Below are positions 10,594 through 30,233 of a stretch of 38,031 bases of DNA, in pieces. The stretch covers positions 1 through 38,031 of the forward strand of contig SKHI01000002.1 of assembly GCA_007117065.1 (NCBI GenBank), given 5' to 3'. Numbering within the stretch: position 1 is the stretch's first letter; each line of letters starts with the position of its first letter. A model generated the notes under the pieces. That model had not been told where the DNA came from and ran no database searches. It saw only the letters and a program-made list of their open reading frames with translations. This stretch comes from Candidatus Woesearchaeota archaeon (GTDB lineage: Archaea; Nanobdellota; Nanobdellia; Woesearchaeales; SKIA01). The position numbers were made by a program, and so were the translations under genes.

Positions 10594-10657
10594 GAAACGT
10601 GTCAGCCACTGGACAACTAGTAGGAGCATATAAAAACAACTCTTTCTCTGTACTGTT

Positions 10658-11728
10658 ATGTCTTTGTTTAAGGATGTTTTAGATCACACAAAAAGTCTGT
10701 TTGTAGACGAGCATGCACTGAATTATGAGTTTCTTCCTGCAGTACTTCCATTTAGAGAAAACGAGCAACAGTATCTCGCTACCTGCATAAAGCCTTTGTT
10801 TCATGACCGGACGGGAAGAAATTTACTTATTCACGGTCCTCCTGGAACAGGAAAAACTGCTGCTGCGCGTTTTGTACTTCGTGATTTGGAAGAACAAACA
10901 GATCGTATTCACGCTATTTTTGTAAGTTGTTGGAAGTTTAATACGACATTTAAGATACTAGCTGAGATTTGTAATCAGATTGGGTATGCGTTTACACACA
11001 ATAAAAAAACAGATGAATTGATGCGCATAGTTGCTCATAATTTAAATAAGTCTCGAAGCGTGATAGTGTTTGATGAAGTCGATAAGGCCGAGGATACTGA
11101 TTTTTTATATTTCTTACTTGAGGAGATAGAGCGAAAAGTCATTTTTTGTATAACTAATTTTACGGAGTGGCTTATTGAACTTGATGAACGTGTTAAGAGC
11201 CGTTTGCTTGCTGAATTAGTTGAGTTTCCCAGTTATTCTCAAAAAGAAATGCATGGTATTTTGTTTGAACGATTAAAATATGCGTTTCGTGATGGTGCGT
11301 GGTCTGAAGCATCGCTCGCTCTAGTTTCTGCTCGCGCTGCTCAGGAAAAAGATATTCGAGTAGGGCTATACTTGCTTCGCGAGTCGGGCATGATTGCCGA
11401 GGAATCTTTTGCCGACTCTGTAGCTGAACAACATATTCAAAAAGCAATTAAGAAGCTTGATGAGTTTACTATAAAAAGTCCTAAACAACTCGATGCCGAA
11501 GCAAAGCTCGTACTTGAGTTATGCAGGCTTCACGCAGGTAAAAAGATTGGTGAAGTGTTTGCTGAATACCAACATTCTGGCGGTAAAGGTGTGTACAAGA
11601 CGTTTCAGCGAAAAGTCCGTTATCTTTCAGAAAATAAATATATTTCTACCGAGCGCATCACGGGTGGGAGCGAGGGTACAACAACGATTATTCGTCTTCC
11701 TCACAAAAACCTCTCCGACTACCTATAA
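10658..11728 (+). CDS. Orc1/Cdc6-type replication initiator
   Basis: AAA+ ATPase of 356 residues followed by a winged-helix domain, the normal archaeal Orc1/Cdc6 layout. Walker A is GPPGTGKT at 60-67, Walker B SVIVFDEVDKAE near 134-145, and ITNFTEW the sensor-1 region. The C-terminal about 90 residues (ELCRLHAGKKIGEVF onwards) are the DNA-binding winged helix. It binds origin recognition boxes and loads MCM. ATATAAAA at 10628-10635 is 26-27 bases before ATG 10658. A single CCACTGGAC 10606-10614 upstream resembles the core of an origin recognition box, but no array is seen, and the base skew does not change here. Confidence 0.95.
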   Translation: MSLFKDVLDHTKSLFVDEHALNYEFLPAVLPFRENEQQYLATCIKPLFHDRTGRNLLIHGPPGTGKTAAARFVLRDLEEQTDRIHAIFVSCWKFNTTFKILAEICNQIGYAFTHNKKTDELMRIVAHNLNKSRSVIVFDEVDKAEDTDFLYFLLEEIERKVIFCITNFTEWLIELDERVKSRLLAELVEFPSYSQKEMHGILFERLKYAFRDGAWSEASLALVSARAAQEKDIRVGLYLLRESGMIAEESFADSVAEQHIQKAIKKLDEFTIKSPKQLDAEAKLVLELCRLHAGKKIGEVFAEYQHSGGKGVYKTFQRKVRYLSENKYISTERITGGSEGTTTIIRLPHKNLSDYL

Positions 11729-11758
11729 GTATAAATATATGCAATTACTTACTCTGTA

Positions 11759-12490
11759 ATGGTTTATCTCTCAGACGATGATTTGTTTACTGGTCGCGTA
11801 GCAGTATTCATTCCATCGCGCCCGTCTGTGCACTATGTTGGTTTCTACTCTTTGTTACATCGTCCTAGTCGAGCGCCAGAAGAGAACGTTATTCCTTTGT
11901 TTGATTCCTTTAATCCGTTTACGCAAAAAGGGACGCGGTACCGCCTTGGGCCTCTTGATAGTATTCACTATACTGTAGTTCGTTCTCGAGCCGAATCTTC
12001 CGGATTTTCCTTTTCTACAGCTTCCCAACTCGCATATACTCCAGAGGGTCATAGCGAAATGCTTGCGCACACTTTGCGTAAACTGGCGCTCTCAGCCCCG
12101 TTGCCTGATCCATCATTTCATAGGTTTGAGGTTGGTCTGATGTCTGTGCTCAGTCGCAAACATCCTGGTGGCGGTGGCATTGCATATGCAAATCCTCTTT
12201 CTTCTTCTCCATACGTAAGCGAGAGTACAGCACGGAGAGCATATTTAGCAGATCACATAAAGACTGTTTTGCATAATTTTAATGCTTCTTTGCAAACTGA
12301 TAGGGATAAAGAAGTGTTGTGTGCGAGCATATCAGATGTCTATCTTCTTTGGAAATCATGCGCTGGCAGTAAACAATCTTTCATTCGTACACTGAATCAA
12401 TCGTTTCCCTATCCTGTCGTTGACGTTGATTATGCATCCCTTCTCAAGGTGGTGTTTATTTCTTCGTCAGCTCACTCGCATCAAAAATGA
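11759..12490 (+). CDS. Protein of unknown function
   Basis: 243 residues, soluble, no signal peptide or transmembrane helix, Ser-rich, with a Gly cluster (HPGGGGIAYA) in the middle. I recognise no family. A TATA box (TATAAATA, near 11733) ending in the cdc6 stop region is 26 bases upstream of ATG 11759, so it has its own promoter. The 3' end overlaps the convergent zinc-finger gene by 35 bases. Codon use (T-ending) matches neighbouring + strand genes, which supports it being a resident gene. Confidence 0.7.
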   Translation: MVYLSDDDLFTGRVAVFIPSRPSVHYVGFYSLLHRPSRAPEENVIPLFDSFNPFTQKGTRYRLGPLDSIHYTVVRSRAESSGFSFSTASQLAYTPEGHSEMLAHTLRKLALSAPLPDPSFHRFEVGLMSVLSRKHPGGGGIAYANPLSSSPYVSESTARRAYLADHIKTVLHNFNASLQTDRDKEVLCASISDVYLLWKSCAGSKQSFIRTLNQSFPYPVVDVDYASLLKVVFISSSAHSHQK

Positions 12491-12725
12491 GATTGTTCTC
12501 AAATGCTTTTTTCTTATTTATGATACCACACGTATCACAGAGAAAAAATAATCCGTACTTACCTGTTCTTGGCTCAAGAATTGATGAACATACACAAAGT
12601 AATTGGTTAAGCTCTGCTTTGATGTGCGCATGACATACCGGAACTCCTTGATAATTCTTCTGTGTGGCAGGCCGACTGCAAAAAACGCATGTCGTAACTT
12701 GACTTTCTCCGTATTGTTTTCTCAT
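12456..12725 (-). CDS. Small zinc-finger protein
   Basis: 89 residues with two probable zinc sites: CVFC...CHAH near 13-33 and CVC...CDTC near 44-67. The second half, GKYGLFFLCDTCG, resembles the zinc ribbons found at topoisomerase I C-termini. Likely nucleic-acid or protein binding. The ATG overlaps the stop of the RNA methyltransferase gene (ATGA), so it is co-translated with it and may assist it; that is inference. The 3' end runs 35 bases into the convergent gene. Confidence 0.7.
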   Translation of the reverse strand: MRKQYGESQVTTCVFCSRPATQKNYQGVPVCHAHIKAELNQLLCVCSSILEPRTGKYGLFFLCDTCGIINKKKAFENNLIFDASELTKK

Positions 12726-13675
12726 GGCTTTCTTATGTGGGCGACAAAAAACCCTTCTGTATCATTTGTGTATGGGTGTATGCGTAAGCATTTATTAATT
12801 GCAGTGTGTAAACTACTTCCTGTTTCTGGGTGTGTGAGAATGTTTGGTTCTCGTTGTATGTTTACTGTGATATCTACGAGGTCTGCCTCAGGATGCGCGT
12901 TCAGAAATGCATCAATGACGCATTCGTTTTCAAGAGGATCTATGCTGCACGTACTGTAGGTCATAGTTCCGCCTGAAACAAGTGCTGCGTATCCTGTAAG
13001 GAGAAGTCGGTATTGTAGTTTATGAAATGCGTGTAATTGTTGCGGGTTAAATTGAGTGAGTGCTTTTAAGCTTCTTCGTATTGTTCCTGTTCCGCTACAC
13101 GGAGCGTCAAGGAGTATTTTATCAAACGAATATTTTTTGTATTCTCTTGCATCTTTGCGCGTGATCACTGTATTTGCTACTCCAAGTCGTTGCAAATTCA
13201 CTCCTAAGGGCGCAAGCCTTGATGCGTCCGCATCATTTGCCACAATTATCCCTCTGTTTTGCATGTGCGCTGCCATTTGAGAGGTCTTACTTCCGGGTGC
13301 TGCACACATATCTAATACGCGCTCTCCTGGTTGTGGACGGAGTATTTCTACTGGTAACATGCTTGCCGGATCTTGAATATAGAGGTGTCCGAGTTGGTGT
13401 TCGAGGAGGTTTCCTATGTCTAGCCGTTCGCCTTCAATCCAATACCCTTGTGCACACCACGGCACGGGAACTAATGTCCAACCCTGTGCACGTAACGTGT
13501 CCGCTATTTCATTTCGTGCTTTTAGCGTGTTTATGCGTATGGCTCTGCGCAAGTATTTTTTGTTTGACTCCATGAATGTATCGTATTTTGCTTCGAAAAT
13601 TTTTTTGTATCGTTTAGCAAATGCATCCTTTACGATTAGTTCCTCGGTTCGTTCAGTTCGATCTGTCCAACTCAT
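12722..13675 (-). CDS. NOL1/NOP2/Sun-family RNA cytosine-C5 methyltransferase
   Basis: 317 residues, S-adenosylmethionine-dependent RNA m5C methyltransferase (RsmB/NSUN/Trm4-like; rRNA or tRNA target not resolvable). The SAM site is VLDMCAAPGSKTSQMA. Motif IV LLDAPCSGTG holds the Cys that releases product, and motif VI TYSTCSIDPLENE holds the nucleophilic Cys. TTTATATA at 13697-13704 lies 25-26 bases from ATG 13675, so I take this start rather than the ATG 21 bases upstream, which falls too close to the TATA box. First gene of an operon with the zinc-finger protein. Confidence 0.93.
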   Translation of the reverse strand: MSWTDRTERTEELIVKDAFAKRYKKIFEAKYDTFMESNKKYLRRAIRINTLKARNEIADTLRAQGWTLVPVPWCAQGYWIEGERLDIGNLLEHQLGHLYIQDPASMLPVEILRPQPGERVLDMCAAPGSKTSQMAAHMQNRGIIVANDADASRLAPLGVNLQRLGVANTVITRKDAREYKKYSFDKILLDAPCSGTGTIRRSLKALTQFNPQQLHAFHKLQYRLLLTGYAALVSGGTMTYSTCSIDPLENECVIDAFLNAHPEADLVDITVNIQREPNILTHPETGSSLHTAINKCLRIHPYTNDTEGFFVAHIRKP

Positions 13676-13788
13676 ACAGTCGTTACGCCGCACCAATTTA
13701 TATATTCTGCTTTAAAAAACGCTCTTTTTTACGAAACATTTAAATACTATTTTCAGTAGAACTACTGTATAGTCAACAGACTACAGGT

Positions 13789-14706
13789 ATGATCATGAAC
13801 AAAAAAGGAATAATGGGTATAGGAACGCTCATAATTTTTATAGCAACAATTCTCGTAGCAGCAGTAGCTGCTGGCGTAATAATTTCTACAAGTGGTATTT
13901 TGCAACAGCAGTCCTTACTTATAGCAGATCAAAGTCAAAGTCGTCTCGTTGACGGTATTCAAATAACGCACGTTTTCATGCGAGGCGATGTCGTTAATAG
14001 AACTGCAAACAATGTCGAAATGTTAATTCGTCCAGAGCCTGCGAGTAGGCCAATCAACTTCCAAACCACCTCTATATCTTTTTTCACTGCTACGAATGCG
14101 TATAGCGCTTCATTAAGTCATCCGACTATGATTGATTTTGAATTTACTTTGACTACATCGCTAGATACTACATGGCAAGCGTTTGCTGATCTTGATGGGG
14201 ATGGCGTTGCTGATGAGATCCGTCTTGTTGATCAAGGTGCAGGTAATCCTGATTTTCTTCAAGTTAACTTAAGCAGACATGGTGCTTCAGCGCTTCTGCC
14301 TCTTGGTTTTGATACAAGTGTTGCTGGTCAATCAATATCTAGAGAAGATATTCCTATACGGTTTGCTGATGGGCGTATCTATGGATACATTCACCTTTCT
14401 GATGCAAGTACTGCTGCTGGTTCACTAAATCCGAATACAGTAACTATTACTGATGAAATTAGGGGTCCGTGTTCTTTTGAAACGCTTCGTCCTGAAACAA
14501 GATACTGTATATCTACTGTTGTTGGAACTGATGATGGCTACCTTGAGTACGGTGAAACTGTATTCATTTACTTTAGTATGTTGCAACCTCTTTTAGAAAA
14601 TGATCAATGGGAAGTTATCATTTTCCCACAAGATGGGAGAAGTACTTTTGTTTTAGGTCGTGTTCCTTCTGTTGTATATCAACAAAGAATGACTGTGTTC
14701 CCGTAA
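13789..14706 (+). CDS. Archaellin (archaeal flagellin)
   Basis: 305 residues (303 if the second Met, ATG 13795, is used). The N-terminus is the classic class III signal and archaellin H-domain: NKKGIMGIGTLIIFIATI then LVAAVAAGVIISTSGILQQQ. FlaK/PibD-type peptidase would cut after KKG. The rest is the beta-rich outer domain, including DLDGDGVADEIRLVD, which resembles a Ca-binding loop. Archaellins polymerise into the archaellum filament. No other archaellum gene (flaI, flaJ, flaF/G) follows here, so the filament machinery must be elsewhere. TTTAAATA at 13739-13746 places transcription start near 13768, leaving a leader of about 20 bases with AGGT before the start, unlike its leaderless neighbours. 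Confidence 0.9.
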   Translation: MIMNKKGIMGIGTLIIFIATILVAAVAAGVIISTSGILQQQSLLIADQSQSRLVDGIQITHVFMRGDVVNRTANNVEMLIRPEPASRPINFQTTSISFFTATNAYSASLSHPTMIDFEFTLTTSLDTTWQAFADLDGDGVADEIRLVDQGAGNPDFLQVNLSRHGASALLPLGFDTSVAGQSISREDIPIRFADGRIYGYIHLSDASTAAGSLNPNTVTITDEIRGPCSFETLRPETRYCISTVVGTDDGYLEYGETVFIYFSMLQPLLENDQWEVIIFPQDGRSTFVLGRVPSVVYQQRMTVFP

Positions 14707-14794
14707 ACAAATATTTTTTTTGACCAAATACCCATTACTTTATATAGTACTTCTTGTATATTTTTTATAACGAAACTGGGGAGTTTCAAAGAGA

Positions 14795-14911
14795 GTGGTA
14801 CAGAATACATTAATAGTTATATTATTGGCTCTATTTCTTATTTGTACTGTTACTGATAGATTTCATGCTGTGTTTATTTGTGATTCGTGTGCTGCGGGGT
14901 ATTTGTTATGA
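14795..14911 (+). CDS. Small hydrophobic peptide (38 aa) coupled to the giant surface protein
   Basis: GTG-started frame of 38 residues: NTLIVILLALFLICTV is one transmembrane/signal segment, followed by two cysteines close together (ICDSC). Its TGA overlaps the ATG of the giant gene (ATGA), a coupling seen throughout this window. A TATA-like TTTATATA near 14743-14750 and a GGGGAG about 11 bases before the GTG give it a leader. It may be a translated leader or a small partner of the surface protein. Too short to be certain. Confidence 0.42.
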   Translation: MVQNTLIVILLALFLICTVTDRFHAVFICDSCAAGYLL

Positions 14912-17900
14912 AGTACGGATATTTGTTTCTTTTGTCAATATTATTTCTTCCCGTTGCTTTTGCTATGCAAGTTGAAATACAGGTAGATTTAGCCGACGAG
15001 ATACTTCCTGGTTCAACTCAAGAACTTCGCGTTCATGTAACGATAGATGATATTCTTGTGTTCAGTCCTCCGTTACGATCACAGCTTTTTTTTCCGGATG
15101 GTTCAAACAGGCAGGTAGTGTTTACAAACACTCCTGAAGGTGCTCTTTCTACTGAAGTATACCTTCCTCAAATAGGGGATTATGTTCTATTAAGCACGAT
15201 AACAATTGGTTCAGAAACGTATACGCAAGAGACGACCTTTAGTGTTGGAAGTCCTTCTTTTCAAGGTACTATACGATATGCTGATGAGCAATTGTTTATC
15301 AATATAAGTCCTCATTATACGTTATCTGCCTATAGGGTGGTTCCTGCTCCGGGCCCTGTTTCTCTGGATGCGCCTGCTCAGTGCGCAGTAGATTGTTTTG
15401 AATGTGTTGTTGCCTGTCCAGTTGATACCTTGTTATATGTTGTTGCTCAGGATGCCTTTACGTATGGATTTTTGTTTGGTGCAAATGTTACTCAACAAAA
15501 AGTGTTTTCAGGTCAAGTGATTGCGACCGAAGGGATGTTTAGTTACTCAGACGGTTCGTTTAGAGCTCTCTCCTCTCGAACAGCAATAACTACTCCGCTT
15601 CTCGTAGTAAATGGTTCTCAATTAATTCACTATAGTATAAGTGATTTCTCTTCCCGCTTTGCTGATGAGCTTATTGCCTATAGCTTTAATACTCAACAGT
15701 GGTATTCTTTTGTCCAAGGGTCATCGGATGTTGTGCAACTGCAACATGCTCCAGTTTCTGTTCGCGCTCTTACTGATGCTTCTTTTGTGATAAATGGTTC
15801 ATTTATTTCTTCTCAAGGTCCTTTTGAAGCAGTGCTTAATCTCAGTCTTCCTGCTCCAGCGAATATTTCTGTTGTCGCAAATCAATTTGGTTCATTACTT
15901 GCAGACGTGTCTTCTCCTTTGCGAATATCTGCTCCACAGAGAACTGGTTTCTTACAGGATTCTGATTCTTCTCGAGTCGCTATATTTGCTGATTCAATAG
16001 CGTACATCGCTGCTCCGGCAGTTTTTTTTGATGCTGATGAGCATCAATTCTTGCATTCATGGGTGGCAATTGATACAGTATCTCCTCTTGACATTCCTAC
16101 AGGGAGTTCCATTCTTCGTTTTGTTCTCCTCGATTCCTCTTTAGATACCATGCGCATATTCTCTGATCCCGTATTGAATACCTCTGAGCTTTCTGAAGGG
16201 CAGTATTATCTCTTTGCACTCGGTTCGCAGCGTTCTTACGTTCAGCCCCTTATCCTTAGACAATCAGGGGAGTCGTTTACTGTTTCAAGTGAGCATTCTC
16301 TGAATGGGGTTGCTAATACACAACTTCGTTTTGAGCGGCGCATTACAAACACTGGTTCTGTGCCAATTACTGTTGATATAGCGTATGATTCTCCTTTTAG
16401 AGTGCTTCTTTCTGACTCAACGAATACGCCGTTATCTGACTCAAATAGAAATGGTATTGTTGATACGGGTATTATTCTTCCTGGCGAATCAAAAGTACTA
16501 CATGCTATTGCATTTCTCCCCTCCGAGGCAGAATCTGGTTTTATTAATTGGAGCTTTTCTTCTCAAAACGAGACTCTTCAAGTAGCAGATACTATTATTA
16601 TCTCAGAATCATCAACAAATATGCAGGAAGATGTTGCTGTAAGCAATATCGTGTATGATTCTGTCAATGCAAGCTTTACAGTATTTATTTATAATTATGG
16701 TTCTGAAAGGATAACTGCGCCTATCGAATTTACGTACTATCTTCGAGAAGGACTTGATTCTGCACAACAGACTGCTGTGCTTGCTCCTGGAGAAAATACT
16801 TTACTCTTTCCTTCAATGCCTGGTCTGTTAGGCGTTCGAACAGAAATACAGATTGAGGACGCTGGTTTGGATAATAATTATCGGACAAAAATATTCTCTT
16901 CGCACCATGGTATTCCTTTTGCTCTGTCAGAACAGAGAGGCCGTGACCATGACGGTTTTGTCATAAAAATATCGTCTCTTGATAACAGAGACTATGTTGC
17001 TTGGTACCCGACACTTTCTGGCGCCTTTGAGCAAGCAGCTGTGTACCGTCTTGATGATACGCTCTTTGTGTCTGTTCCTTTAGCAAGAAATACTGATCTT
17101 ACTTTGTATCTTGTCGAGGGCGTTTCAGAGAGGTCTTTTACTCCGTATAAAATAGTTGATAATAGAGATTCTTTAGTTCGTACTACAGGTTCTTGGTATC
17201 CTGATACGAGTGTTCCGGGTTTTTTTGGTTCTAATTATCTTGTTGATTTAGCTGAGCGGAGAGGTTCTAAGTCTGTTTCGTATTTTGTTGCTTCGCATGA
17301 TGCCTTTTTTGAGGTTGAGATCATGCACCCTGGTAGTCCTTCCTTCGCCTCAAACGCGCGGTTAGAAATTGGTCCTACCGTGCTATTCATTGATCAGCGC
17401 AGACCTGCTGATTGGCGTTATCTTGGAAGATATCGTTTGGATGAAAACACGCCTATCGTTATCAGTAATAGTGGTGCTGATGGTATTGTTGTTGCTGATG
17501 CGTTTAGAGTTACGCGCGTTGACCAATACGCTACGTTTATTCCACAAATATCTCGTGATATTATTTTTGCTAGTTCAGGTACACCCCTCTCTGCTCGCGT
17601 AATTCTCGAATCAGCTTCCAGTCGTCTAGACGATCTTAGCCTTTCTCAGGCTAGTCAAGTTTCGGGGATATACGAAATAACGCTCATGTTTGACCAAGGT
17701 CCTGTTTCATCAGTAGTGATTCATGGAGCAGATCCTTCGCGTGCTCTCTTAGGCATCGAGGCAGTTCCTATCTCACGCGCTCGACAATTCACCGCTCTTC
17801 CTGTTCGCGATGCTTTTGCTATTGATCCTGTTTTTGAGGCTGACTACAGTTTTACTCGTGTTGCTCGAGGGGAGCGTTTGTATAAGTGTGTTGAGTATGA

Positions 17901-20900
17901 TTTTTCTTCTCAGGAATGTTTTGGCGAATTCGTTTTCGTACAAGAAATTCCTCTTGGCCAAGAGTACACTGTCACTCTTTCGCCTGAAGATCCTCTGTTT
18001 ATAGAAGTTGTCGATGATAGTCCGTTTGGTCCGGTAATTACTGCTTCTGGACCAGTTCTTACATACAGTCCTTCTCCAAATCCTGCTGTTGTTGAAACAT
18101 TTGATCTTTCTGTTACGTGGTCTACTTCCTCCCTTGAGGAGGTCTTATTTACTTGGGATGGTGTTACTGCTCCTCTGTTTGACGATGATTTACTGATTAT
18201 GTATAATTTTGATAATGTTTCAGGAGTTGATAGTTCAGGAACAGTAAAGAACATTGCTGGAGGTAGTTTTGATCTTTCTGTCTCAAATGTAAGTTTTGTT
18301 CCTGGTATTTTTGGAACTGCCATTGATTTTTCTCAAGCGAGTGCACCTGGTATCGTTACATCGCCTACGAATTTACGAAGACAATCAACCTACATGGCTT
18401 GGGTGAGACCGAACAGTTTTACAAGTGGTTTTCAAGGGGTATTCGGTCATACCAACGGCACTGGAAATCCTAGTTTTGGGTTATACACTACTAATTCTGG
18501 GTGGCCATGCACGAGTAATACGTACTTCTTTGGTTTGGGTCATCAAAATAATGGGCCAAAATGTATTTCTGCCTGGCCTTATTTTAATCAATGGGTGCAT
18601 GCGGCACTCGTTATCGAAAGTGTCTCAGGCCAAACTATCACCTATACTGGTTATCTAAACGGTGTATCTGTTGTTTCTGGTTCGCAGAATTTTATGGGCA
18701 ATTTTTTTACAATTTATGTTGGTGGTGGCGATTCAGGAGTTTTTGACGGACTTATCGATGAATTTAGATTTTATGACCGCGCTCTCACTGCAGATGAAAT
18801 AAACCTCTTAATGCGAGCTAATCTTGCAAAAACTGCAGTAAATGATTGGCAAGTTTCCTTCTTTGAGGATGAAGAAGGAGATTATAATTATAGTGTATCT
18901 GTTACTAATTCTGCGGGAACTACTGACTCTGGTATTCGTGAAGTAACTATTGGTTTTGATTGTTTTGATTCTTCTGCTGTTGGTTTGATTGGCGCCATTG
19001 GTAGTGTTTGTGAGGGTATGCTTGTTGTTGATAATGCGTTACTTCGTAGTGCTGCTTCTAGTTTTGTTGGTGGTGATGAGAGTTTTAGTCTTGTTGGTCC
19101 TGATGGTCTTGATTATACGTTTGCTGATTCTTCTCGTAATGTGTTTACTGGTCAGGTTACTGATATGAGTAATTTGTTCCATGATACAAGTTTTTCTGGC
19201 GATATTGGGTACTGGGATACGCGTAATGCGGTTTCTTTCTTTGAGCTGTTTCGTAGTGCTTCTTCTTTTGATTCTGATTTGTCTTCTTGGAATACTTCTT
19301 CTGTGACTACCTTTAGGCGCATGTTTCAGGATGCTTCTAGTTTTAATCAGCCTCTTAATTCTTGGAATACTTCTTCTGTGACTACTATTAATTCTATGTT
19401 TGAGCGCGCTTCTAGTTTTAATCAGCCTCTTAATTCTTGGGATGTTTCTCTAGTTACTGATATGAACGATCTATTCATACAAACGCAGTTCAATCATCCT
19501 CTTGATAGTTGGGATGTTAGTAATGTGGTTACTATGACTGGTATGTTTGTGAATTCTCCTTTTAATCAATCGATTTCTTCTTGGGATGTTTCTTCTGTGA
19601 CTACTATGAATGGTATGTTTTCTGGTGCTTCTTCTTTTAGTCAGGATTTGAGTGGTTGGTGTGTGTATCTTATTTCTTCTAAGCCTTCTAATTTTGATGT
19701 TGGTTCTGGTTTTGAGGGTGAGGATTCTTTGCAGCCTTCTTGGGGTTCTGCTTGTGCTGTTGTTGATATTGTGGGTCCTGAATCTCTTAGTTATTCTGAT
19801 TCTTCTGTTTTGGTTAATCTTTCTGTTTCTGGTTCTCATGTTGATAGTGTGTGGTTTGATTGGAATGGTACTCCTGTTTCTTATTCTTCTCCTGTGTTTG
19901 TTGATTTCCCTGTTGGTACGCATACGTTGTTTGCTTTTGTTAATGATTCGTTTGGTAATGTTGCTTCAGCTAATGTTTCTTTTAGTATTTTTTCTGATTG
20001 CTTTGCCTCTTCTGCTGTTGGTTTGATTGGTCCTGTTGGTAGTGTTTGTGAGGGTATGCTTGTTGTTGATAATACGTTGCTTCGTAGTGCTGCTTCTAGT
20101 TTTGTTGGTGGTGATGAGAGTTTTAGTCTTGTTGGTCCTGATGGTCTTGATTATACGTTTGCTGACAGTTCTCGTAATGTGTTTACTGGTCAGGTTACTG
20201 ATATGAGTAATTTGTTCTTTAATACATCTTTTTCTGGTGATATTGGGTATTGGGATACTCGTTCTGTTGTTACTTTAGCAGGTATGTTTTATGCATCTTC
20301 TTCTTTTGATTCTGATTTGTCTTCTTGGAATACCTCTTCTGTGACGAGTATGCGTGATACTTTTCGCCGTTCTTTTGCTTTTAATCAGCCTATTGGTTCT
20401 TGGGATGTTAGTCAGGTTACTGATATGCGTGCAATGTTTTTTCAGGCTTCTTCTTTTAATTCTGATATTTCTTCTTGGAATACTTCTTCTGTGACTGCTA
20501 TGCGTGATATGTTTCGGGATAATTCTGTGTTTAATCAAGATTTGTCTTCTTGGAATACTTCTTCAGTTATTACTATGCGTAATATGTTTTGGAATGCAGT
20601 ATCCTTTAATGGTTCGATTAACTCTCTTGATGTGTCCAGAGTTATGGACATGACACGCCTTCTTGAGGGGGCATCAAATTTTACGAATGATATTTCATTA
20701 TGGTGCGTACAGAACATCCAGACTAAGCCGGATTTTTTTGATCTAAATTCAGGAATTGAAAATAACACTGCACTGCAACCGCAATGGGGACAAAACTGTA
20801 TTGTAATTACTGTAAACAGTCCTGAAGAAGGAACTACAACACAACAAGAACTGCCTATAAACATAGTTGCAACCAGTCCATTTGGAGTAGACACAATACT

Positions 20901-21384
20901 CTTTAACTGGAATGGAACAAACGTCACCTATACAGAACCAGTGAACGTGACTTTCCCAATAGGAACACACACACTCACTGTATTCGTAAATGACACCACA
21001 GGAGAACTTGAAACATTCAACAGAACGTTTACTGTGCAAACAGCTGTAAGCACGCCTCCACCAGCAGCGGCAACAGGCGGCGGATTTACAGGAGGAGGAA
21101 GAGGAGGACAATTCATCTTCACTGAAACAGAAGAATCAACTCCAGAAACCTCTGAACAACCAGCACCTGCACCGGCACCTACGCCGGCACCAGAACCAAC
21201 ACCTGCACCTACGCCAACACCTACGCCTGAACCAGTCGTAGAGGAAGCAACGCAAACAGCAGACGCACCTGGAGCAGGACTAGCAGGTCAGTTCTTACAA
21301 AATATGCCTCAAACAGGCATTCTCATATTCTTCATACTCTTAGCAGTAGGAATTGGAGTATACGCGTATTCAAGAAAAAAATAA
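14908..21384 (+). CDS. Giant cell-surface protein with golvesin-like, LamG-like and duplicated DUF285 repeat domains
   Basis: 2158 residues. The signal peptide is residues 1-20. A long beta-rich region with CARDB/Ig-like character follows (NTGSVPITVDI, ILPGESKVLHAI). A golvesin C-terminal-like domain lies about 750-875 (DWRYLGRYRLDE...GIVVADAFRV), and a LamG/concanavalin-like domain about 1094-1305 (FGTAIDFSQAS, YMAWVRPNSF, GLIDEFRFYDRAL). Then come two DUF285 blocks (about 1355-1616 and 1701-1964), each with six 25-residue units of the SWNTSSVTTMxxMF type and each followed by an Ig-like unit (VWFDWNGTPVSY; ILFNWNGTNVTY). A Gly-rich and Pro/Thr-rich stalk leads to MPQTG, a hydrophobic helix and RKK. 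DUF285 repeats occur in BspA/lipoprotein-type adhesins, so a role in surface attachment is likely. The start is the ATG overlapping the preceding small frame. Codon bias flips within the gene near 20.65 kb. Confidence 0.9.
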   Translation: MKYGYLFLLSILFLPVAFAMQVEIQVDLADEILPGSTQELRVHVTIDDILVFSPPLRSQLFFPDGSNRQVVFTNTPEGALSTEVYLPQIGDYVLLSTITIGSETYTQETTFSVGSPSFQGTIRYADEQLFINISPHYTLSAYRVVPAPGPVSLDAPAQCAVDCFECVVACPVDTLLYVVAQDAFTYGFLFGANVTQQKVFSGQVIATEGMFSYSDGSFRALSSRTAITTPLLVVNGSQLIHYSISDFSSRFADELIAYSFNTQQWYSFVQGSSDVVQLQHAPVSVRALTDASFVINGSFISSQGPFEAVLNLSLPAPANISVVANQFGSLLADVSSPLRISAPQRTGFLQDSDSSRVAIFADSIAYIAAPAVFFDADEHQFLHSWVAIDTVSPLDIPTGSSILRFVLLDSSLDTMRIFSDPVLNTSELSEGQYYLFALGSQRSYVQPLILRQSGESFTVSSEHSLNGVANTQLRFERRITNTGSVPITVDIAYDSPFRVLLSDSTNTPLSDSNRNGIVDTGIILPGESKVLHAIAFLPSEAESGFINWSFSSQNETLQVADTIIISESSTNMQEDVAVSNIVYDSVNASFTVFIYNYGSERITAPIEFTYYLREGLDSAQQTAVLAPGENTLLFPSMPGLLGVRTEIQIEDAGLDNNYRTKIFSSHHGIPFALSEQRGRDHDGFVIKISSLDNRDYVAWYPTLSGAFEQAAVYRLDDTLFVSVPLARNTDLTLYLVEGVSERSFTPYKIVDNRDSLVRTTGSWYPDTSVPGFFGSNYLVDLAERRGSKSVSYFVASHDAFFEVEIMHPGSPSFASNARLEIGPTVLFIDQRRPADWRYLGRYRLDENTPIVISNSGADGIVVADAFRVTRVDQYATFIPQISRDIIFASSGTPLSARVILESASSRLDDLSLSQASQVSGIYEITLMFDQGPVSSVVIHGADPSRALLGIEAVPISRARQFTALPVRDAFAIDPVFEADYSFTRVARGERLYKCVEYDFSSQECFGEFVFVQEIPLGQEYTVTLSPEDPLFIEVVDDSPFGPVITASGPVLTYSPSPNPAVVETFDLSVTWSTSSLEEVLFTWDGVTAPLFDDDLLIMYNFDNVSGVDSSGTVKNIAGGSFDLSVSNVSFVPGIFGTAIDFSQASAPGIVTSPTNLRRQSTYMAWVRPNSFTSGFQGVFGHTNGTGNPSFGLYTTNSGWPCTSNTYFFGLGHQNNGPKCISAWPYFNQWVHAALVIESVSGQTITYTGYLNGVSVVSGSQNFMGNFFTIYVGGGDSGVFDGLIDEFRFYDRALTADEINLLMRANLAKTAVNDWQVSFFEDEEGDYNYSVSVTNSAGTTDSGIREVTIGFDCFDSSAVGLIGAIGSVCEGMLVVDNALLRSAASSFVGGDESFSLVGPDGLDYTFADSSRNVFTGQVTDMSNLFHDTSFSGDIGYWDTRNAVSFFELFRSASSFDSDLSSWNTSSVTTFRRMFQDASSFNQPLNSWNTSSVTTINSMFERASSFNQPLNSWDVSLVTDMNDLFIQTQFNHPLDSWDVSNVVTMTGMFVNSPFNQSISSWDVSSVTTMNGMFSGASSFSQDLSGWCVYLISSKPSNFDVGSGFEGEDSLQPSWGSACAVVDIVGPESLSYSDSSVLVNLSVSGSHVDSVWFDWNGTPVSYSSPVFVDFPVGTHTLFAFVNDSFGNVASANVSFSIFSDCFASSAVGLIGPVGSVCEGMLVVDNTLLRSAASSFVGGDESFSLVGPDGLDYTFADSSRNVFTGQVTDMSNLFFNTSFSGDIGYWDTRSVVTLAGMFYASSSFDSDLSSWNTSSVTSMRDTFRRSFAFNQPIGSWDVSQVTDMRAMFFQASSFNSDISSWNTSSVTAMRDMFRDNSVFNQDLSSWNTSSVITMRNMFWNAVSFNGSINSLDVSRVMDMTRLLEGASNFTNDISLWCVQNIQTKPDFFDLNSGIENNTALQPQWGQNCIVITVNSPEEGTTTQQELPINIVATSPFGVDTILFNWNGTNVTYTEPVNVTFPIGTHTLTVFVNDTTGELETFNRTFTVQTAVSTPPPAAATGGGFTGGGRGGQFIFTETEESTPETSEQPAPAPAPTPAPEPTPAPTPTPTPEPVVEEATQTADAPGAGLAGQFLQNMPQTGILIFFILLAVGIGVYAYSRKK
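18970..19755 (+). repeat. DUF285 block, copy A of a 1.04-kb in-frame duplication
   Basis: Copy A opens with AVGLIG...GSVCEGMLVVDN...RSAASSFVGGDES and continues with six units of about 25 codons, ending at WGSAC. Its first about 210 bases match copy B at an exact offset of 1038 bases (346 codons), with only about eight mismatches by eye. The six-unit part is more diverged. The block is extremely T-rich in third codon positions. Confidence 0.85.
20008..20799 (+). repeat. DUF285 block, copy B of the in-frame duplication
   Basis: Same order as copy A: near-identical opening about 210 bases, six units of about 25 codons (SWNTSSVTAMRDMF, SWDVSQVTDMRAMF and similar), then a closing WCVQNIQTKPDFFD...WGQNC matching WCVYLISSKPSNFD...WGSAC of copy A. 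The last unit and the closing part leave the T-rich codon pattern near 20.65 kb. Confidence 0.85.
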
Positions 21385-21453: not shown

Positions 21454-22764
21454 ATGAACAAACAACTCAGTTACCTTGTTTTACTTACATTACTTAGCAT
21501 AGGAATAGGACTCATTCCTACAATACAACACGGAGTACCGCCAGGATACGTAGACACAGCAGCGCATATAGCTACAGGATTAGACGTGCGTGAAGGAAAT
21601 TTCGACTCGCTATTACACAAATGGTGGCATCGTAAAAATCATGTACTCTACCAGGAAGAACGCATAGTTGATAGATATATAACGACGTTTTTTTATCCGC
21701 CCCTCTTGCACCTACTCCTTGCATTCACATACATATTTCTACCTATCGCCTTTGGAACAGGATTACTCATCTCCACCCTCTACGCACTAAGCGTGCCCGC
21801 ACTATACTTTGTGCTTCGTTCACATGGAATACCAGAAAAAGAATCGCTCTTAGCAGGAGCAATTATGGCAGTAAGTACCACTCTCTTAATCTCTCAAAAT
21901 AACGGATTCTGGACATTTATCATAGCACTCAACTTCAGTCTTCTTGCATACGCAAGTACTCGATTTCAGAAGGTTATTCCAGCAATACTCTTCGCCTTAC
22001 TTGCAGTACTCACGCACTGGGTGTTTTTTCTTGCAATTTGCGTAATATACAGTATAGAATGGTTGTACAGAAAAAACCAGTCTGTTAAGAACATAGCTCT
22101 TGTTTCTCTATCCACCTCAAGTGTTCTCTTGCTTGCTACAGTGCTTATCTCAGACTGGCCCTATCTAGGAACATCACACCCAGTAATACACATTGAGAAC
22201 ATATTCCTCCTCGTACCAGCCATAATTGGGGCATGGTATGCAAGAAAACAATTTCCAGAAATAATTTTTTATGCGACGGTAACTCTTCTCATCATGTTCA
22301 GCCATGCAATAAACATTCTCTTCATCTTTGCAGACATGGCACAATACGCACTCGTATATTTCATAGCTGCTTTTTGTGCAATAGGACTGAGTGCAACAGT
22401 ACAAAGAAAAAGAAAAGCACTCTTACTGTTTACGAGCATAGGAATACTAGTCACTCTCTTTTCTACCGTGCAACTCACTATGAGCACACAGCCTTCAATA
22501 ACGAGCGAACAATTAGAACAACTCATTCACATACGCGCACAGACAGAAATAACAGAGCAAACAATACTCGTATGGGATGCTGATATACATCCGGCTTGGA
22601 GCGTACTTGTAGCAAAAAGAAAGCTCATGTATCCGTTTGAAGATACAGAGTCAGTGGCATCCAAGCATGTAGCATACTTAGAATATCAGAGACACACGGC
22701 AGAGAGAGTATTTGTACGTGAACAGAATAATACCCTGTATACGTACATGGCAAAACAAATATAA
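21454..22764 (+). CDS. Polytopic membrane protein, GT-C-like layout
   Basis: 436 residues with about ten transmembrane helices, a large first extracytoplasmic loop (about 25-75) and a soluble C-terminal segment. The first loop has acidic and His residues (GYVDTAAHIATGLD and IVDRYITTFFYPP) placed as in GT-C glycosyltransferases and oligosaccharyltransferase-like proteins, but no signature is complete, so a glycosyltransferase role is only a suggestion. It starts after an AT-rich TATA-like tract at 21428-21440. It ends 22 bases before the HAD gene and may be co-transcribed. Next to the giant surface protein and archaellin, surface glycosylation would make sense. Confidence 0.72.
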   Translation: MNKQLSYLVLLTLLSIGIGLIPTIQHGVPPGYVDTAAHIATGLDVREGNFDSLLHKWWHRKNHVLYQEERIVDRYITTFFYPPLLHLLLAFTYIFLPIAFGTGLLISTLYALSVPALYFVLRSHGIPEKESLLAGAIMAVSTTLLISQNNGFWTFIIALNFSLLAYASTRFQKVIPAILFALLAVLTHWVFFLAICVIYSIEWLYRKNQSVKNIALVSLSTSSVLLLATVLISDWPYLGTSHPVIHIENIFLLVPAIIGAWYARKQFPEIIFYATVTLLIMFSHAINILFIFADMAQYALVYFIAAFCAIGLSATVQRKRKALLLFTSIGILVTLFSTVQLTMSTQPSITSEQLEQLIHIRAQTEITEQTILVWDADIHPAWSVLVAKRKLMYPFEDTESVASKHVAYLEYQRHTAERVFVREQNNTLYTYMAKQI

Positions 22765-22786
22765 AATAAGATTCGTTCATGCAGAT

Positions 22787-23482
22787 ATGAATGGCATTCT
22801 TCTTATCGACTTTGCAGGAACACTTATCAGAAATGAAATGATACAGCAAGCAAACACGTTGCGAGCAAACATACTACAAAAAGCAGCACCCACAACACAA
22901 GAGCACGCACAAGAACAGACACTCTATGCGAACAACCGAGAAGCACTCAAACAACTCACTGGATTATCAAACGAAGAGCACATACGCTACACCACAAATG
23001 AGTACCAACAACTCATCATAAACGGCGAAGACGTGCATAACCAGATAGCAACAACGTTATTTCAACTCGGAATGTACATAGTAGCGAATGAGAATAAACA
23101 AGATATATACGTGTCAGGAATGATAGGAACGTTAGAAGAATTAAAGAAAAGAGGACATATACTGGCAATAAGCAGTGGAGTACGAACAGATATTATTAGC
23201 GGAGTACTGGCAATAACAGGCCAAACAGAACTGTTTAGTCATATTCTTGGCCAACCACCCAGACTAGGGATAAGCAACGAAACACATTTGCGAGAACTAC
23301 AGAGTAAAGGAAAAATACTGTACGCAATAGGAGATAAGTATAGCGACTTAGAGCCAGCAAAAAAATATGGTGTTGAAACAGTTTATGTCACCTGGGGAAC
23401 GCCAACAGGAGAAGAAGAAACAATAGCAAATCATACAGTACAGCAACCCGAAGAATTACTGGATATCTTAAGAGAGCAATAA
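22787..23482 (+). CDS. HAD-superfamily hydrolase with DxAGT nucleophile motif
   Basis: 231 residues from ATG 22787. HAD motif I is LLIDFAGTL: the nucleophile Asp is present, but the usual acid/base Asp two residues later is Ala, as in the phosphonoacetaldehyde hydrolases (DxAGT). Motif II is AISSGV, and motif IV AIGDKYSDLEPAKKYG keeps the metal-binding acids. A helical cap lies between residues about 15 and 90. It is 22 bases behind the membrane-protein gene. The longer upstream frame overlaps that gene and lacks family similarity. Substrate unknown; phosphonatase activity would also need a cap Lys that I cannot assign. Confidence 0.85.
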   Translation: MNGILLIDFAGTLIRNEMIQQANTLRANILQKAAPTTQEHAQEQTLYANNREALKQLTGLSNEEHIRYTTNEYQQLIINGEDVHNQIATTLFQLGMYIVANENKQDIYVSGMIGTLEELKKRGHILAISSGVRTDIISGVLAITGQTELFSHILGQPPRLGISNETHLRELQSKGKILYAIGDKYSDLEPAKKYGVETVYVTWGTPTGEEETIANHTVQQPEELLDILREQ

Positions 23483-23536
23483 TAATGTTTGTACTAGGAC
23501 AAAAATATTAATCATCGATTCATTCAGTCCCTGGTG

Positions 23537-24484
23537 CTATAATCTTTCTGACCAGGCTCTTGTAACTAGATGTTCTTGTAATCCATAACCAAGATACATT
23601 CGTTTTATTATTCCACAATATTGTTGTAAAAAGTTTTCTAACTCTTCTATTGAGTCGTGTAACAAGGTTGGATTTTTAGAAGATTCTTGTGTTTGGTTAA
23701 TAACCTGCTGTATCTTTATAATATTATTAATAATTGCTTTTCGTTTATTTTTTGCCTGTCTTACTATTTCAGGAGATACATTAGCATTATTATCCATGGC
23801 AATGATTTTTAACTTAGGACTTTCATCTTTAAAATACGCTTCTTCATGTCGATCAATGAAGTTCTCTATGTATGATATGATGTTAGTTATCTGATATGAT
23901 TTAATTTTATTTTTAAATTCTTCTACTGGGATAGTGTGTTCTTGAGCAAAAGGATCTTGTTCTGTGCCAACATATCTGCTGATTTCTGTCTCTATGGTTT
24001 CTAATAACATAATATTTCTATTAATATGCTGGTAAGGAATAGTATGTTTTATATGCTCTATTCGTAAATATGTTTGTTTTTTACTATACCACTCGCTCAT
24101 TTTTTCTATAAAGCGAATATGCGCCTCTAAATCTCTTTTTAATTCATCGAATACCTTTTGATTATGCTGTTCAAATAGTGCATGCACTCTTTGTTTTAAA
24201 CTTTCTATAATTTTCGTTCTCCGATTAATTTGTTTAATCAAGAACTCTTTTCTTTTCTCTTCTTCCGGATCGTTGTCTTTCGTAACAACAAGAATATTAT
24301 TTTGTTCGAACTCATAAAATTCACGCTCTATCTCATCTAGTAGTTTGTTCAATAGGCCTTGATGTTCTCCTTGGCCTTTTAGAGTATTTTTTTGACTGAT
24401 GTTGTTTATTTCTTGCTGTAATAATATGTTTAATTTTCTAATTCGAGCTTCTCTCCCACTTGCTTTAAAATCTTCAGTAAACAT
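23537..24484 (-). CDS. Coiled-coil protein of unknown function
   Basis: 315 residues, almost entirely alpha-helical, with several Glu/Lys/Gln-rich heptad stretches (for example KRKEFLIKQINRRTKIIESL and IIKIQQVINQTQESS) and no signal peptide or membrane helix. No family recognised. Codons are A/T-rich, with many AAA, AAT and ATA, so the + strand here is T-rich, opposite to the genes on both sides; this suggests later acquisition. CTATATAAA near 24514-24522 lies about 34 bases upstream of ATG 24484. It appears to be a single gene. Confidence 0.68.
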   Translation of the reverse strand: MFTEDFKASGREARIRKLNILLQQEINNISQKNTLKGQGEHQGLLNKLLDEIEREFYEFEQNNILVVTKDNDPEEEKRKEFLIKQINRRTKIIESLKQRVHALFEQHNQKVFDELKRDLEAHIRFIEKMSEWYSKKQTYLRIEHIKHTIPYQHINRNIMLLETIETEISRYVGTEQDPFAQEHTIPVEEFKNKIKSYQITNIISYIENFIDRHEEAYFKDESPKLKIIAMDNNANVSPEIVRQAKNKRKAIINNIIKIQQVINQTQESSKNPTLLHDSIEELENFLQQYCGIIKRMYLGYGLQEHLVTRAWSERL

Positions 24485-24530
24485 TTTCTATCAAAGAGTA
24501 AATACTGGTTTCTCTATATAAATATTTCTT

Positions 24531-25025
24531 TTATAATAACTTCTTCTTAATAACATCAGGAAATAATCGTCTCACAACTTCGTCAAAGAAAGGAATTGTC
24601 TGATATGAAGAAATACTAGTAAAATCAACCCATGCATAAGAAACATTTTCCTCATTAAGAACAATAACAGGCTTTGAAGAAAGTACTGCAGAACCAAGAA
24701 AAGAAATAATTTTTTGTCGAGAAGAACTAACAATAAGAGGGTGCTCTAAGAACTGTATAGTAATACCAGTCAATCCTAACTCTTCCTCTAATTCCTCAGA
24801 CGCTTTCTCTTGAAGAGAAACAGGCTCATCAAGATAACCCGTTACACCAGACCAAAAGAGAGGAAATGATTGAACAGCAGTACTGCGCTGAACAAGCAAC
24901 ACTTGATCATCTACACGAAGAAGAACGTGAACTGCTGCTGCAAGGGGAGATTCGGTGAAATCAATTCTTCCATCAGCAAAGCGAGGATAAGAAGAAAACA
25001 ATGCAAATAACTCGTCTTGTTTCAT
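24531..25025 (-). CDS. Nudix hydrolase, third gene of the ABC operon
   Basis: 164 residues. The Nudix region GYLDEPVSLQEKASEELEEE has the EELEEELGL core with metal-binding glutamates. The first Glu of the box is replaced (GX5V) and the Arg of RE is Glu, a variant box. N-terminal strands VHVLLRVDDQVLLVQRS are typical of the fold. Its ATG overlaps the permease stop (ATGA), so the three genes ATPase-permease-Nudix form a coupled operon. Substrate unknown; a link to nucleotide-sugar or lipid-pyrophosphate metabolism would be a guess. Confidence 0.85.
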   Translation of the reverse strand: MKQDELFALFSSYPRFADGRIDFTESPLAAAVHVLLRVDDQVLLVQRSTAVQSFPLFWSGVTGYLDEPVSLQEKASEELEEELGLTGITIQFLEHPLIVSSSRQKIISFLGSAVLSSKPVIVLNEENVSYAWVDFTSISSYQTIPFFDEVVRRLFPDVIKKKLL

Positions 25026-26902
25026 AACTGCTGTTTTAGAGTGGAAATAGCGCCCTTGCGAGACTTATTTCGTAGCGCGCGAGAAAGTTGGTCGTCCTTA
25101 TACACATCACGAATCCAATCAGCAAACACATTACGCGAGTGATCAGCAAATTGCTCATACGCATCATCAGAAATACTTTCCAGTAAAGAGATCAGAGACT
25201 TCTTAGAATTAATGCTTTTACCAAACACTAACAACTCTCTTCCTTCAGGAACTTCACCCTCCTGCAAAAATGACGAGACACGTAAAGCAGTTTTACGAGA
25301 TTCAAAATATTGCACGCGTGCAACACGCTGAACAATCATTATCAATGCAAATAACATTATGGCATACAACCACAGAACAAACAAGTATGCGATAAGTTCG
25401 GACAGAGAAAACTGAAACACCAGTGCGCCAATGAGTAACTGATTACTTAATACAAATGGATTAGCTTGAACAAAAAACTCAATAAGCCCAGGAAGACTGT
25501 GTATAGGAAGAACGACATCGCTTACGAGTAATAAAATGGCGCTTACCGTAATAGCAGATAAAAGCACACTTTCTCGCGTATTAAATAAGTAGCCCATTAA
25601 TACGCCTAAAAAGGAGAAAAACGTTATAATTGAAAATAATAATATGCTTGTCGTAAAGAGGTGCTCAGACAGAGAAAAAGAGATGAAGAATGACGAAACA
25701 ACACTGAGCAGTATCACTTGAATGAGAACGACAAGTAACGTAGTCGCATACATACTCAAAACAAAAAGCCAATCAGGAGTGGGGGTGATGAAGTTACGAA
25801 AGTACGCCCTACTGCTGCGCTCAGAAATAACGAGTTGAGAAGCAAGAAGAAGAGAGGTAAACATGATAAGCAATACTAAAAATGAAGGAAATAACGTGCT
25901 TATATCATCAGGAACACTCACCGGTTCAACAACAGTAAGCAACGGATCAGAAAGTTCAGAAACAGAAATATTCACAAAGAGAACGCTTTGTGTTTCTTCT
26001 AAAGAAGATTGCAATGCATCGACAAGCACACGGGTAGACGAAAGAGATGCACCAAGAATATTCGCTTGTGTGTACAGTTCTTGTTGTCGAAACTCTATTT
26101 CAGAAACGCTTTGCGCAGTTCTCTCCAGAGAAACAGCAATTGAGCGTAAATCATCAATAGAACCATTATCAACGCGTTGTAAGGAAGAAAGAAACTCATT
26201 TGCTACCTCCCTTGAGCTATTATCTCCCTGAGAAGAAGCGAGCTCATCAAACGCGGAGTGCAACGAGAAGGCAAGGGAGCGATACTCGTTTTGTGCATCA
26301 ACTACTGAATCGACAAGAGAGAGAAACCGCTGAGGGCTGACAAGCGAGATACTCGTGAATACTGACCCAGAGGAGTCCCGTAATACTGCAAGATCTCGTT
26401 GTAATGAAGTAAGAGAGGCAGAAATATTTTTAGAAACACTAGCATCTGAATACAGATTCACTCGAGCAGTTGAAAGAGCAGAAAGAACTTCTTCAGAAAG
26501 ACCTTCACGAATAAGACCGGTTTGCGCATCTAATCGAGAAGTAATTTTTTCAAGTAACGGATAGTACACTGCTGATTGTGTGGGATCAACAATAAGAGAC
26601 GCTCTTCCAGGAAGAAAAACAACACATCCATTAATTACGCCTCTTCGAACATCTTGCGAACAGGCGTCAGAAGAAGTATACTCAAGTATGATAAAGGAAT
26701 CTGCAAGACTCTGCTCATATGGCGCAGACGAATCAGATGAAACAATTCCAATAACTGGATCTCCAGAAGAATTAAACACTACTCCAACAATTAAAATGAT
26801 GAGAAGAGGTCCAAGAAGAATGGCAGCACTACTGCTTTTTGAACGCAAAATATTGCGCATATTTTTGCGAATAATGGCGCTGAGTCGAAGAATATGATTC
26901 AC
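25022..26902 (-). CDS. ABC-2 type transporter permease with large extracytoplasmic domain
   Basis: 626 residues. One transmembrane helix near residue 20-45 (SAAILLGPLLIILIVGVVF) is followed by an extracytoplasmic domain of about 290 residues with long helical segments, then about five helices (about 345-535, including FLVLLIMFTSLLLASQLVIS) and a cytoplasmic tail of about 85 residues. This is the ABC-2 exporter layout (as in YhgE/Pip or drug and polysaccharide exporters). It overlaps the ATPase gene upstream and the Nudix gene downstream by four bases each. Cargo is unknown. Confidence 0.87.
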   Translation of the reverse strand: MNHILRLSAIIRKNMRNILRSKSSSAAILLGPLLIILIVGVVFNSSGDPVIGIVSSDSSAPYEQSLADSFIILEYTSSDACSQDVRRGVINGCVVFLPGRASLIVDPTQSAVYYPLLEKITSRLDAQTGLIREGLSEEVLSALSTARVNLYSDASVSKNISASLTSLQRDLAVLRDSSGSVFTSISLVSPQRFLSLVDSVVDAQNEYRSLAFSLHSAFDELASSQGDNSSREVANEFLSSLQRVDNGSIDDLRSIAVSLERTAQSVSEIEFRQQELYTQANILGASLSSTRVLVDALQSSLEETQSVLFVNISVSELSDPLLTVVEPVSVPDDISTLFPSFLVLLIMFTSLLLASQLVISERSSRAYFRNFITPTPDWLFVLSMYATTLLVVLIQVILLSVVSSFFISFSLSEHLFTTSILLFSIITFFSFLGVLMGYLFNTRESVLLSAITVSAILLLVSDVVLPIHSLPGLIEFFVQANPFVLSNQLLIGALVFQFSLSELIAYLFVLWLYAIMLFALIMIVQRVARVQYFESRKTALRVSSFLQEGEVPEGRELLVFGKSINSKKSLISLLESISDDAYEQFADHSRNVFADWIRDVYKDDQLSRALRNKSRKGAISTLKQQL

Positions 26903-27870
26903 TGTCTTGCCTCCGTTAGTTGTAAGAACGCCTCGTCAAGTGTGCCAGAAAGAACTCGAATACTTGTTAATTTTTCATTACTTGCACGAATAACATCAAT
27001 GAGGTGTTGGATAGTAGATTCTACATCAATAGTGGTTATAACTAATTCTTGTCCTTCCTGATGCATATCAATTATTGCGTCGTCGGAGAATCCACTCACC
27101 AATTTTGTATATGCTCCAGGATACGTCTGAACACTAATTTTTTCAGAGGTGATAAACTGTTTCTTAATATTTTGTGGACTATCAATGCTTAATAATCTTC
27201 CCTTGTGTAAGATGGCGACACGATCGCAAATGGTTTCGATGTCTGATAATGAATGGCTTGAAACAATGATGGTAGTTCCCTGTTCAGCGATTCGATGAAT
27301 CATATCCCAAATATTTCTTCGCAAAAATGGATCGAGATCAGCGGTGGGTTCATCAAGGATAAGGATGCGTGGCTTATGAATCATGGCACACGCGATATCA
27401 AGTCTTCGCTGCATTCCTCCAGACATCTCTTTTGCCACACTCTTTCTTGCATGTGATAAGTCCATAAGTTTAAGAAGTAAATCAGCAGTTTTTTTCCAAG
27501 AATCTTGGGAAAGACCGTAGAGCGAAGCGAAATACTCAATATTTTCTTCAACAGTCAAATTAAGATAAATTGAAGGATGCTGACTAGCAAATCCGAAGAC
27601 TTGCTTCACAAGGGGTCCATGTTCAAAGACGGAAGCATACATTTGATGTTGCAGACCAGAAAGAACATTACTTCGTACAAGAACATGACCTTTTTCAGGA
27701 ACAAGAAACCCAATCATGGTACGTAACAATGTAGTTTTACCGCTGCCTGACGAACCAATGACGCCAAGAATTTCCCCCTGACGAACGTCAAGACTAATAT
27801 CGTACAACACCACCTTTTCGCCAAGAACCTTAACAACAGAATCCAGACGAAGAATATCTTTTCCCACCAA
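26899..27870 (-). CDS. ABC transporter ATP-binding protein
   Basis: 323 residues. Walker A is GSSGSGKTTL at about 38-47, the signature MSGGMQRRLD, Walker B ILILDEPTADLDP, and the switch His is in TTIIVSSHSL. The C-terminal about 90 residues form an extra domain, as in ABC-2 exporters of the DrrA/CcmA type. It powers the adjacent permease. The frame has no ATG at its beginning; it must start at TTG 27870 or GTG 27867, a rare choice in this window. First gene of the three-gene operon. A minus-strand TTTATAAA-like element near 27908 lies about 40 bases upstream. Confidence 0.93.
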   Translation of the reverse strand: MVGKDILRLDSVVKVLGEKVVLYDISLDVRQGEILGVIGSSGSGKTTLLRTMIGFLVPEKGHVLVRSNVLSGLQHQMYASVFEHGPLVKQVFGFASQHPSIYLNLTVEENIEYFASLYGLSQDSWKKTADLLLKLMDLSHARKSVAKEMSGGMQRRLDIACAMIHKPRILILDEPTADLDPFLRRNIWDMIHRIAEQGTTIIVSSHSLSDIETICDRVAILHKGRLLSIDSPQNIKKQFITSEKISVQTYPGAYTKLVSGFSDDAIIDMHQEGQELVITTIDVESTIQHLIDVIRASNEKLTSIRVLSGTLDEAFLQLTEARQ

Positions 27871-27958
27871 AAACCACTCTCGTAAAAGATTCTATGAGTA
27901 ATTATTTATAAAATCTCTTATTCCCAAGATTTATAAACGCGTTTTTTATATATGGTAT

Positions 27959-28054
27959 ATGCTAGATATTCTCTCTCATCCATTCATTATTTGTTTATTC
28001 GCATCCCTGGCAAACGTGCTTGGTTACCATTTCATCAAACACTTGTATGTATGA
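27959..28054 (+). CDS. Possible 31-residue hydrophobic peptide
   Basis: Short frame with one membrane-type segment (FIICLFASLANVLGYHF). TTTATAAA at 27930-27937 lies 25-26 bases upstream of ATG 27959, exactly the spacing of the leaderless genes in this window. A second ATG at 27952 opens an overlapping 36-residue frame. Except for this frame, the 220-base gap between the ABC operon and the HTH gene is empty. The support is promoter spacing and composition only. Confidence 0.3.
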   Translation: MLDILSHPFIICLFASLANVLGYHFIKHLYV

Positions 28055-28090
28055 TTGTGTAATCAAAAACTACTACATTGTACTTCAACC

Positions 28091-30229: not shown

Positions 30230-30233
30230 TACC

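Follow-up and report, generated by a model that had tools for sequence, protein, structure and literature searches.

The surface-gene locus

The window, a stretch of 38,031 nucleotides analysed at its full length, is the whole of contig C32 of a Woesearchaeota-like MAG (G000; 51 contigs, 907 kb, 97% complete). The named relatives retrieved with its DnaG are MAGs of Ca. Woesearchaeota and Nanoarchaeota. Its most conspicuous feature is a giant surface-protein gene, whose product combines a Golvesin_C domain, a LamG-like domain, DUF285 repeats, Ig-like modules, a Pro/Thr-rich stretch and a C-terminal membrane segment; the DUF285 (PF03382) match reaches 351.9 bits, against a Pfam cut-off of 25. 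The left flank contains genes for a SerRS-like protein, a UvrD-like helicase, an Orc1/Cdc6 paralogue (A), an RNA methylase and a protein with an archaeal-flagellin domain. In the right flank, the RNase P RNA is followed by NAC-, DnaG-, Rio- and KH-like genes and by an intein-bearing topoisomerase VI B; this last gene (36183-38030) is cut off by the end of the contig, and its intein carries a LAGLIDADG endonuclease. The DUF285 modules of the giant gene (18998-20217) have exact runs of 86, 49, 38 and 37 bp in common and suggest that a recent duplication or gene conversion may have taken place.

Table 1. Features of the window and their strand composition
Feature	Position	Strand	Description
Left flank	1..14800		+ strand T/G-rich; TA at fourfold sites +0.45 (+ genes), +0.63 (- genes)
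Orc1/Cdc6 paralogue A (cdc6-A)	10658..11728	+	356 aa; Pfam Cdc6_lid and AAA
Giant surface-protein gene	14887..21384	+	2165 aa; houses the composition switch
DUF285 cassette	18850..20640	+	Third-position T extreme; two modules, 80% alike
Visible change point	20643..20775		T-ending to A/C-ending codons
A-rich C-terminal part of the giant (putative hybrid) gene	20776..21384	+
Right flank	21454..38031		+ strand A-rich; TA -0.41 (+ genes), -0.31 (- genes)
RNase P RNA	29743-30032		In the right flank

The composition switch

The first-pass annotation had described a change in strand composition that falls inside the giant gene and does not depend on the direction in which genes are read. Both statements hold: the TA skew has the same sign in + and - genes on either side (Table 1), and the change is placed at 20.64-20.78 kb, with 2-log-likelihood intervals of 20739-20775 for all third positions and 20643-20673 for fourfold sites. 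Counted per gene on the + strand, 16 of the 17 left-hand genes prove T-rich, and A-rich genes make up 16 of the 18 to the right. The log-likelihood gain is 340, a value reached by none of 5000 gene-order permutations (maximum 243); indeed, C32 shows the strongest polarity change among the 51 contigs, the runner-up scoring 63. TA and GC both reverse across C32 (rGC 0.17 versus -0.045 on the + strand), the GC part being weak, on the right side, as had been noticed at first sight. Four base counts made by hand (19801-19860, 13021-13080, 20941-21000 and 26401-26460) proved exact, and two Ig-like modules of the same protein differ in their codon endings as described, with third positions T17/G5/C1 in one (19861-19929) versus A10/C7/G3/T3 in the other (20908-20976).

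The switch could be a matter of gene-specific composition only, that is, of a T-rich surface cassette lying beside ordinary DNA with unchanged flanks. Surface cassettes, those with DUF285 among them, have a T-rich sense strand in any context, DUF285 cassettes even within the A-rich surroundings of C31, and in the window the cassette at 18.85-20.64 kb has about 75-80% T at third positions, far above its flank. However, the flanks, 14.8 kb on the left and 16.6 kb on the right, are opposite in sign for both gene orientations, which refutes this as a full explanation and makes it highly improbable; it does account for the extreme T content of the cassette itself. Since cassettes are T-rich whatever their context, the flip of the flanking DNA may have any position from about 14.8 to about 20.75 kb beneath this gene.

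Other T-rich-in-sense islands amid A-rich-sense surroundings are found at C31:3546-6824 (L043), C47:480-3008 (L058) and C27:1-1476 (L039), all repeat-rich surface-type genes; the C31 gene undergoes several composition switches within its own length. The left end of C47, considered as a second flip, was discarded: it is an isolated T-rich surface gene, and a C47-C27 join would keep polarity.

Strand bias in the window's genome and in a single-contig relative

Across the genome to which the window belongs, polarity at fourfold sites is uniform within a contig whichever way its genes run: 721 of 799 genes match the sign of their contig, and coding is divided about equally between the strands (130,281 versus 144,094 codons). 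All nine exact overlaps between contig ends (eight of 121 bp and one of 101 bp) preserve polarity, which is also kept in a tenth, weaker match. When contigs were turned to the T-rich orientation and the effect of transcription was removed, the resulting 33 segments fell along a line of TA versus GC (r = 0.84), forming two classes of nearly equal size, one of 361 kb (TA 0.26, GC -0.11) and one of 406 kb (TA 0.43, GC +0.11). The class means would follow if a two-replichore term (TA about 0.09, GC about 0.11) were added to a T-strand term of constant size (TA about 0.34, GC about 0). As read from its contigs, this genome fits a T>A bias on a fixed strand plus an ordinary two-replichore bias.

A chromosome-scale view is provided by G013, a member of the same order assembled as one contig of 1,301,350 bp (loci L090-L155), in which 643 of 1247 ORFs lie on the + strand. 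It was profiled at fourfold sites in 61 informative 20-kb bins, with about 33 kb masked. The + strand is A-rich on average in 61 of 61 bins, so that TA never changes sign, and 57 of the 61 are A-rich for each gene strand separately; per gene, 89% of + genes and 84% of - genes are A-rich on the + strand, whose raw TA is -0.092. As far as its single contig, whose circularity is not assumed, represents a chromosome, G013 departs from Chargaff's second rule on the scale of the whole molecule. GC behaves differently: a two-breakpoint fit places its steps at about 164 kb and about 765 kb, and a conserved second paralogue, cdc6-B, lies at 764,206. On the two sides of cdc6-B, TA is -0.48 and -0.36 and GC is 0.09 and 0.30; the likely origin at this gene changes GC and leaves the sign of TA alone.

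Among other relatives, counts of A6 and T6 runs, in which contig orientations are mixed and which are only suggestive, are imbalanced in G022, G016, G015, G056 and G007; they are about balanced, again with mixed orientations, in G101, G103 and G014. Counts of purine-repeat patterns were too sparse to serve as a proxy for the bias. Local polarity may be extreme in G087:C1:1-27013, with at least 100 AAAAAA runs, all on the + strand among the matches listed.

Terminus or origin

The reading first chosen for the switch in the initial annotation was a replication terminus. The boundary at C32 would then be a stable one, at which converging forks flip the T/G-rich strand (or, with the polarity reversed, an origin). 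With a G/T-rich leading strand, the polarity does fit converging forks, an Orc1/Cdc6 gene is only 10 kb away, and the right block is equilibrated to an A-rich strand though its orthologue in G002 is T-rich. However, GC in G013 changes both at cdc6-B and at the step opposite, with TA unchanged at either place, and between the two contig classes of the window's genome GC reverses relative to TA; the nearby cdc6 is moreover the A paralogue, whose G013 orthologue is found in mid-arc, where the skew does not change. A flip within a recombining gene family, accompanied by a reciprocal second flip, would also have to be a coincidence. The skew plot over the whole genome that had been proposed as a check was drawn contig by contig for G000 and in full for G013, and TA and GC were found to be decoupled; a joint flip of the two at a global skew extreme opposite an origin, as a terminus would give, was not found, nor does a conserved Orc1/Cdc6 gene adjoin the skew change, as would an origin. 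In this order, an origin or terminus is expected to shift GC and TA modestly without reversing TA. Thus, since both the GC steps of G013 and the contig classes decouple TA from GC, a TA flip of the C32 type is unlike an origin or terminus here, and a stable boundary of this kind is distinctly improbable.

A limited literature search found no paper on replication origins in Woesearchaeota, and cdc6-B was not found in the assembly of the window's genome. In relatives, contigs often start about 80-330 bp from a cdc6-B match (G075, G111, G074, G069, G056, G031, G049 and others); perhaps assemblies break near this gene, possibly at an origin region.

A probable inversion between surface genes

In the assembly, DUF285 repeats occur at four places only: on C31, on C32, at the left end of C30 and at the right end of C7. 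The genes are whole on C31 and C32; the 3' part is missing from the one on C30 and the 5' part from the one on C7. Both partial genes stand at contig ends and, being in head-to-tail orientation, would give one further DUF285 gene if joined. Their flanks differ in sign on the + strand as an inversion predicts, that of C7 being A-rich (TA -0.29, n=300, over 3.2 kb only) and that of C30 T-rich (+0.28 to +0.36); no sequence overlap spans C7-C30. The cassette of C32 matches the minus strands of C7, C30 and C31 exactly over runs that reach 90, 67 and 51 bp, respectively, and exact repeats of 57-90 bp connect C32 with C7 and C30 in the inverted sense. Two marks of an inversion junction are thus found together in C32, namely reversal of both TA and GC polarity, GC weakly on the right, and inverted paralogous repeats. 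Moreover, since DUF285 genes are estimated to make up less than 2% of the genome, it is unlikely that both flips lie within such genes by chance.

On this evidence, the switch in C32 probably, if by no wide measure, marks the junction of an inversion between surface genes of opposite orientation. The alternative that the first-pass annotation had put second, a rearrangement or gene fusion, therefore finds support in the inverted DUF285 genes, their repeats and the halves on C7 and C30, and the terminus that it had put first does not. In this lineage, one chromosome strand would be T-rich nearly throughout, regardless of gene direction and largely of replichore. Two paralogous DUF285 genes would have lain opposed, one with its sense on the T-rich strand and its counterpart on the A-rich one, and the DNA between them would have been inverted by recombination of their near-identical cassettes. 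One product would be the hybrid gene of the window (14887-21384), T-rich in its 5' part and A-rich in its 3' part; the other would be the reciprocal hybrid, with its 5' half on C30 and its 3' half on C7 and an A-to-T flip. Exactly these two hybrids would follow from a single crossover between two inverted genes. The exact crossover point is hidden by T-rich cassettes, of the kind seen on C31, C47 and C27. We infer the join of C7 to C30, inversion as the cause and a fairly recent date.

The same repeats could have misled the assembly. C32 would then be a chimera, fusing two loci wrongly via shared DUF285 repeats; the true order would run from the left part of C32 into C7 and from C30 into the right part of C32, and there would be no flip. 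Exact repeats of up to 90 bp do tie the three contigs together, C7 and C30 break within the same DUF285 gene family, and skew breaks due to misassembly at inverted repeats are documented (PMC7111523). Against this, the eight contig-end overlaps of 121 bp suggest a graph k of about 121, larger than the longest repeat (90 bp); in addition, C32 contains no N, and the strand-symmetric tetranucleotides of both its halves are typical of the genome. A chimera is accordingly rather unlikely.

Relatives offer a partial view of the locus. DUF285 is absent in G001 and G002 and, beyond the window's genome, was found in only one (G016) of the 20 genomes examined. In the homologue of the surface gene in G001, no cassette was seen as far as the examined stretch extends, and the flank genes of C7 are not at the G001 surface locus. 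Synteny with G001 and G002, both lacking DUF285, shows rearrangement; the parental arrangement was not seen in relatives. Around the right block, gene order differs within the genus: a gene now on C30 sits within the G001/G002 block orthologous to the right half of the window. In G002, this orthologous block is T-rich on the gene strand that is A-rich in the window; because of this opposite polarity, the right block would have adapted to the opposite strand earlier. Its history may include an older inversion that preceded the recent one, or else the boundary at C32 may be stable. In G001, a tyrosine recombinase domain (PF00589; L164:2520-3020, G001:C94) separates the flagellin-domain gene from the giant surface gene. 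As a candidate for the inverting enzyme it was rejected, being absent from that place in the window, with only a distant (28%) match on C23.

Significance and comparison with known systems

The fixed-strand A/T asymmetry, visible in full in one relative and read here from contigs, is more surprising than the flip in C32. A tentative general reading, put forward at somewhat less than even confidence, is that Woesearchaeota-like archaea may break Chargaff's second rule in A/T along the whole chromosome: one strand would be T-rich all round, GC would follow two replichores from an Orc1/Cdc6 origin, and the flip in C32 would be the scar of a recent inversion. The cause would be a strand-fixed mutational process, for instance a substantial share of unidirectional or rolling-circle-like replication superimposed on the bidirectional one. 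Should further closed genomes show this asymmetry, the two strands would be treated differently all round by replication or repair in a large group of uncultured archaea, which is not expected from ordinary bidirectional replication. In practice, A/T asymmetry offers a sensitive way to detect recent inversions and assembly errors in these genomes. For its part, the flip in C32 suggests how surface-protein genes may be reshuffled in an archaeon of host-associated type, with whole chromosome segments moving along.

Parts of this picture have counterparts elsewhere; in a partial literature search, no report was found of a fixed A/T asymmetry together with a separate replichore GC signal. In Ureaplasma, surface genes of the MBA/UU172 locus undergo inversions at inverted repeats and chimeric genes have been proposed (PMC3047005). 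The likeness lies in inversion at inverted repeats within surface-protein paralogues; however, the Ureaplasma inversion is site-specific, frequent and local, whereas here one assembly points to a single large inversion and gives no sign of switching. In bacteria, inversions of cumulative skew, real or misassembled, occur at inverted repeats (PMC7111523); as in C32, the skew reversal is bounded by reverse-complement repeats, but those cases concern GC skew and long perfect repeats, and the present one T/A skew and short repeats inside surface genes.

The fixed asymmetry around a whole molecule recalls that of the heavy and light strands in vertebrate mitochondria, where it is linked to strand displacement (PMC3269012); in contrast to mitochondria, the molecule here is a cellular chromosome near 1 Mb, which retains a two-replichore GC signal. 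Finally, in Ca. Chazhemtobacterium aquaticus Ch65 and related Microgenomates, the closed chromosome has a one-directional skew unrelated to gene distribution, for which the authors propose either an origin close beside the terminus or unidirectional theta replication (PMC7143001). The pattern typical of Ch65, one strand enriched along its length independently of gene direction, is found in G013 and, as far as contigs tell, in the window's genome; in both systems, a small-genome microbe of host-dependent type has a one-directional skew along its length. In Ch65, however, the asymmetry is in G/C and AT is without a clear trend, whereas in these archaea it is in A/T, and GC steps twice, once at cdc6-B.
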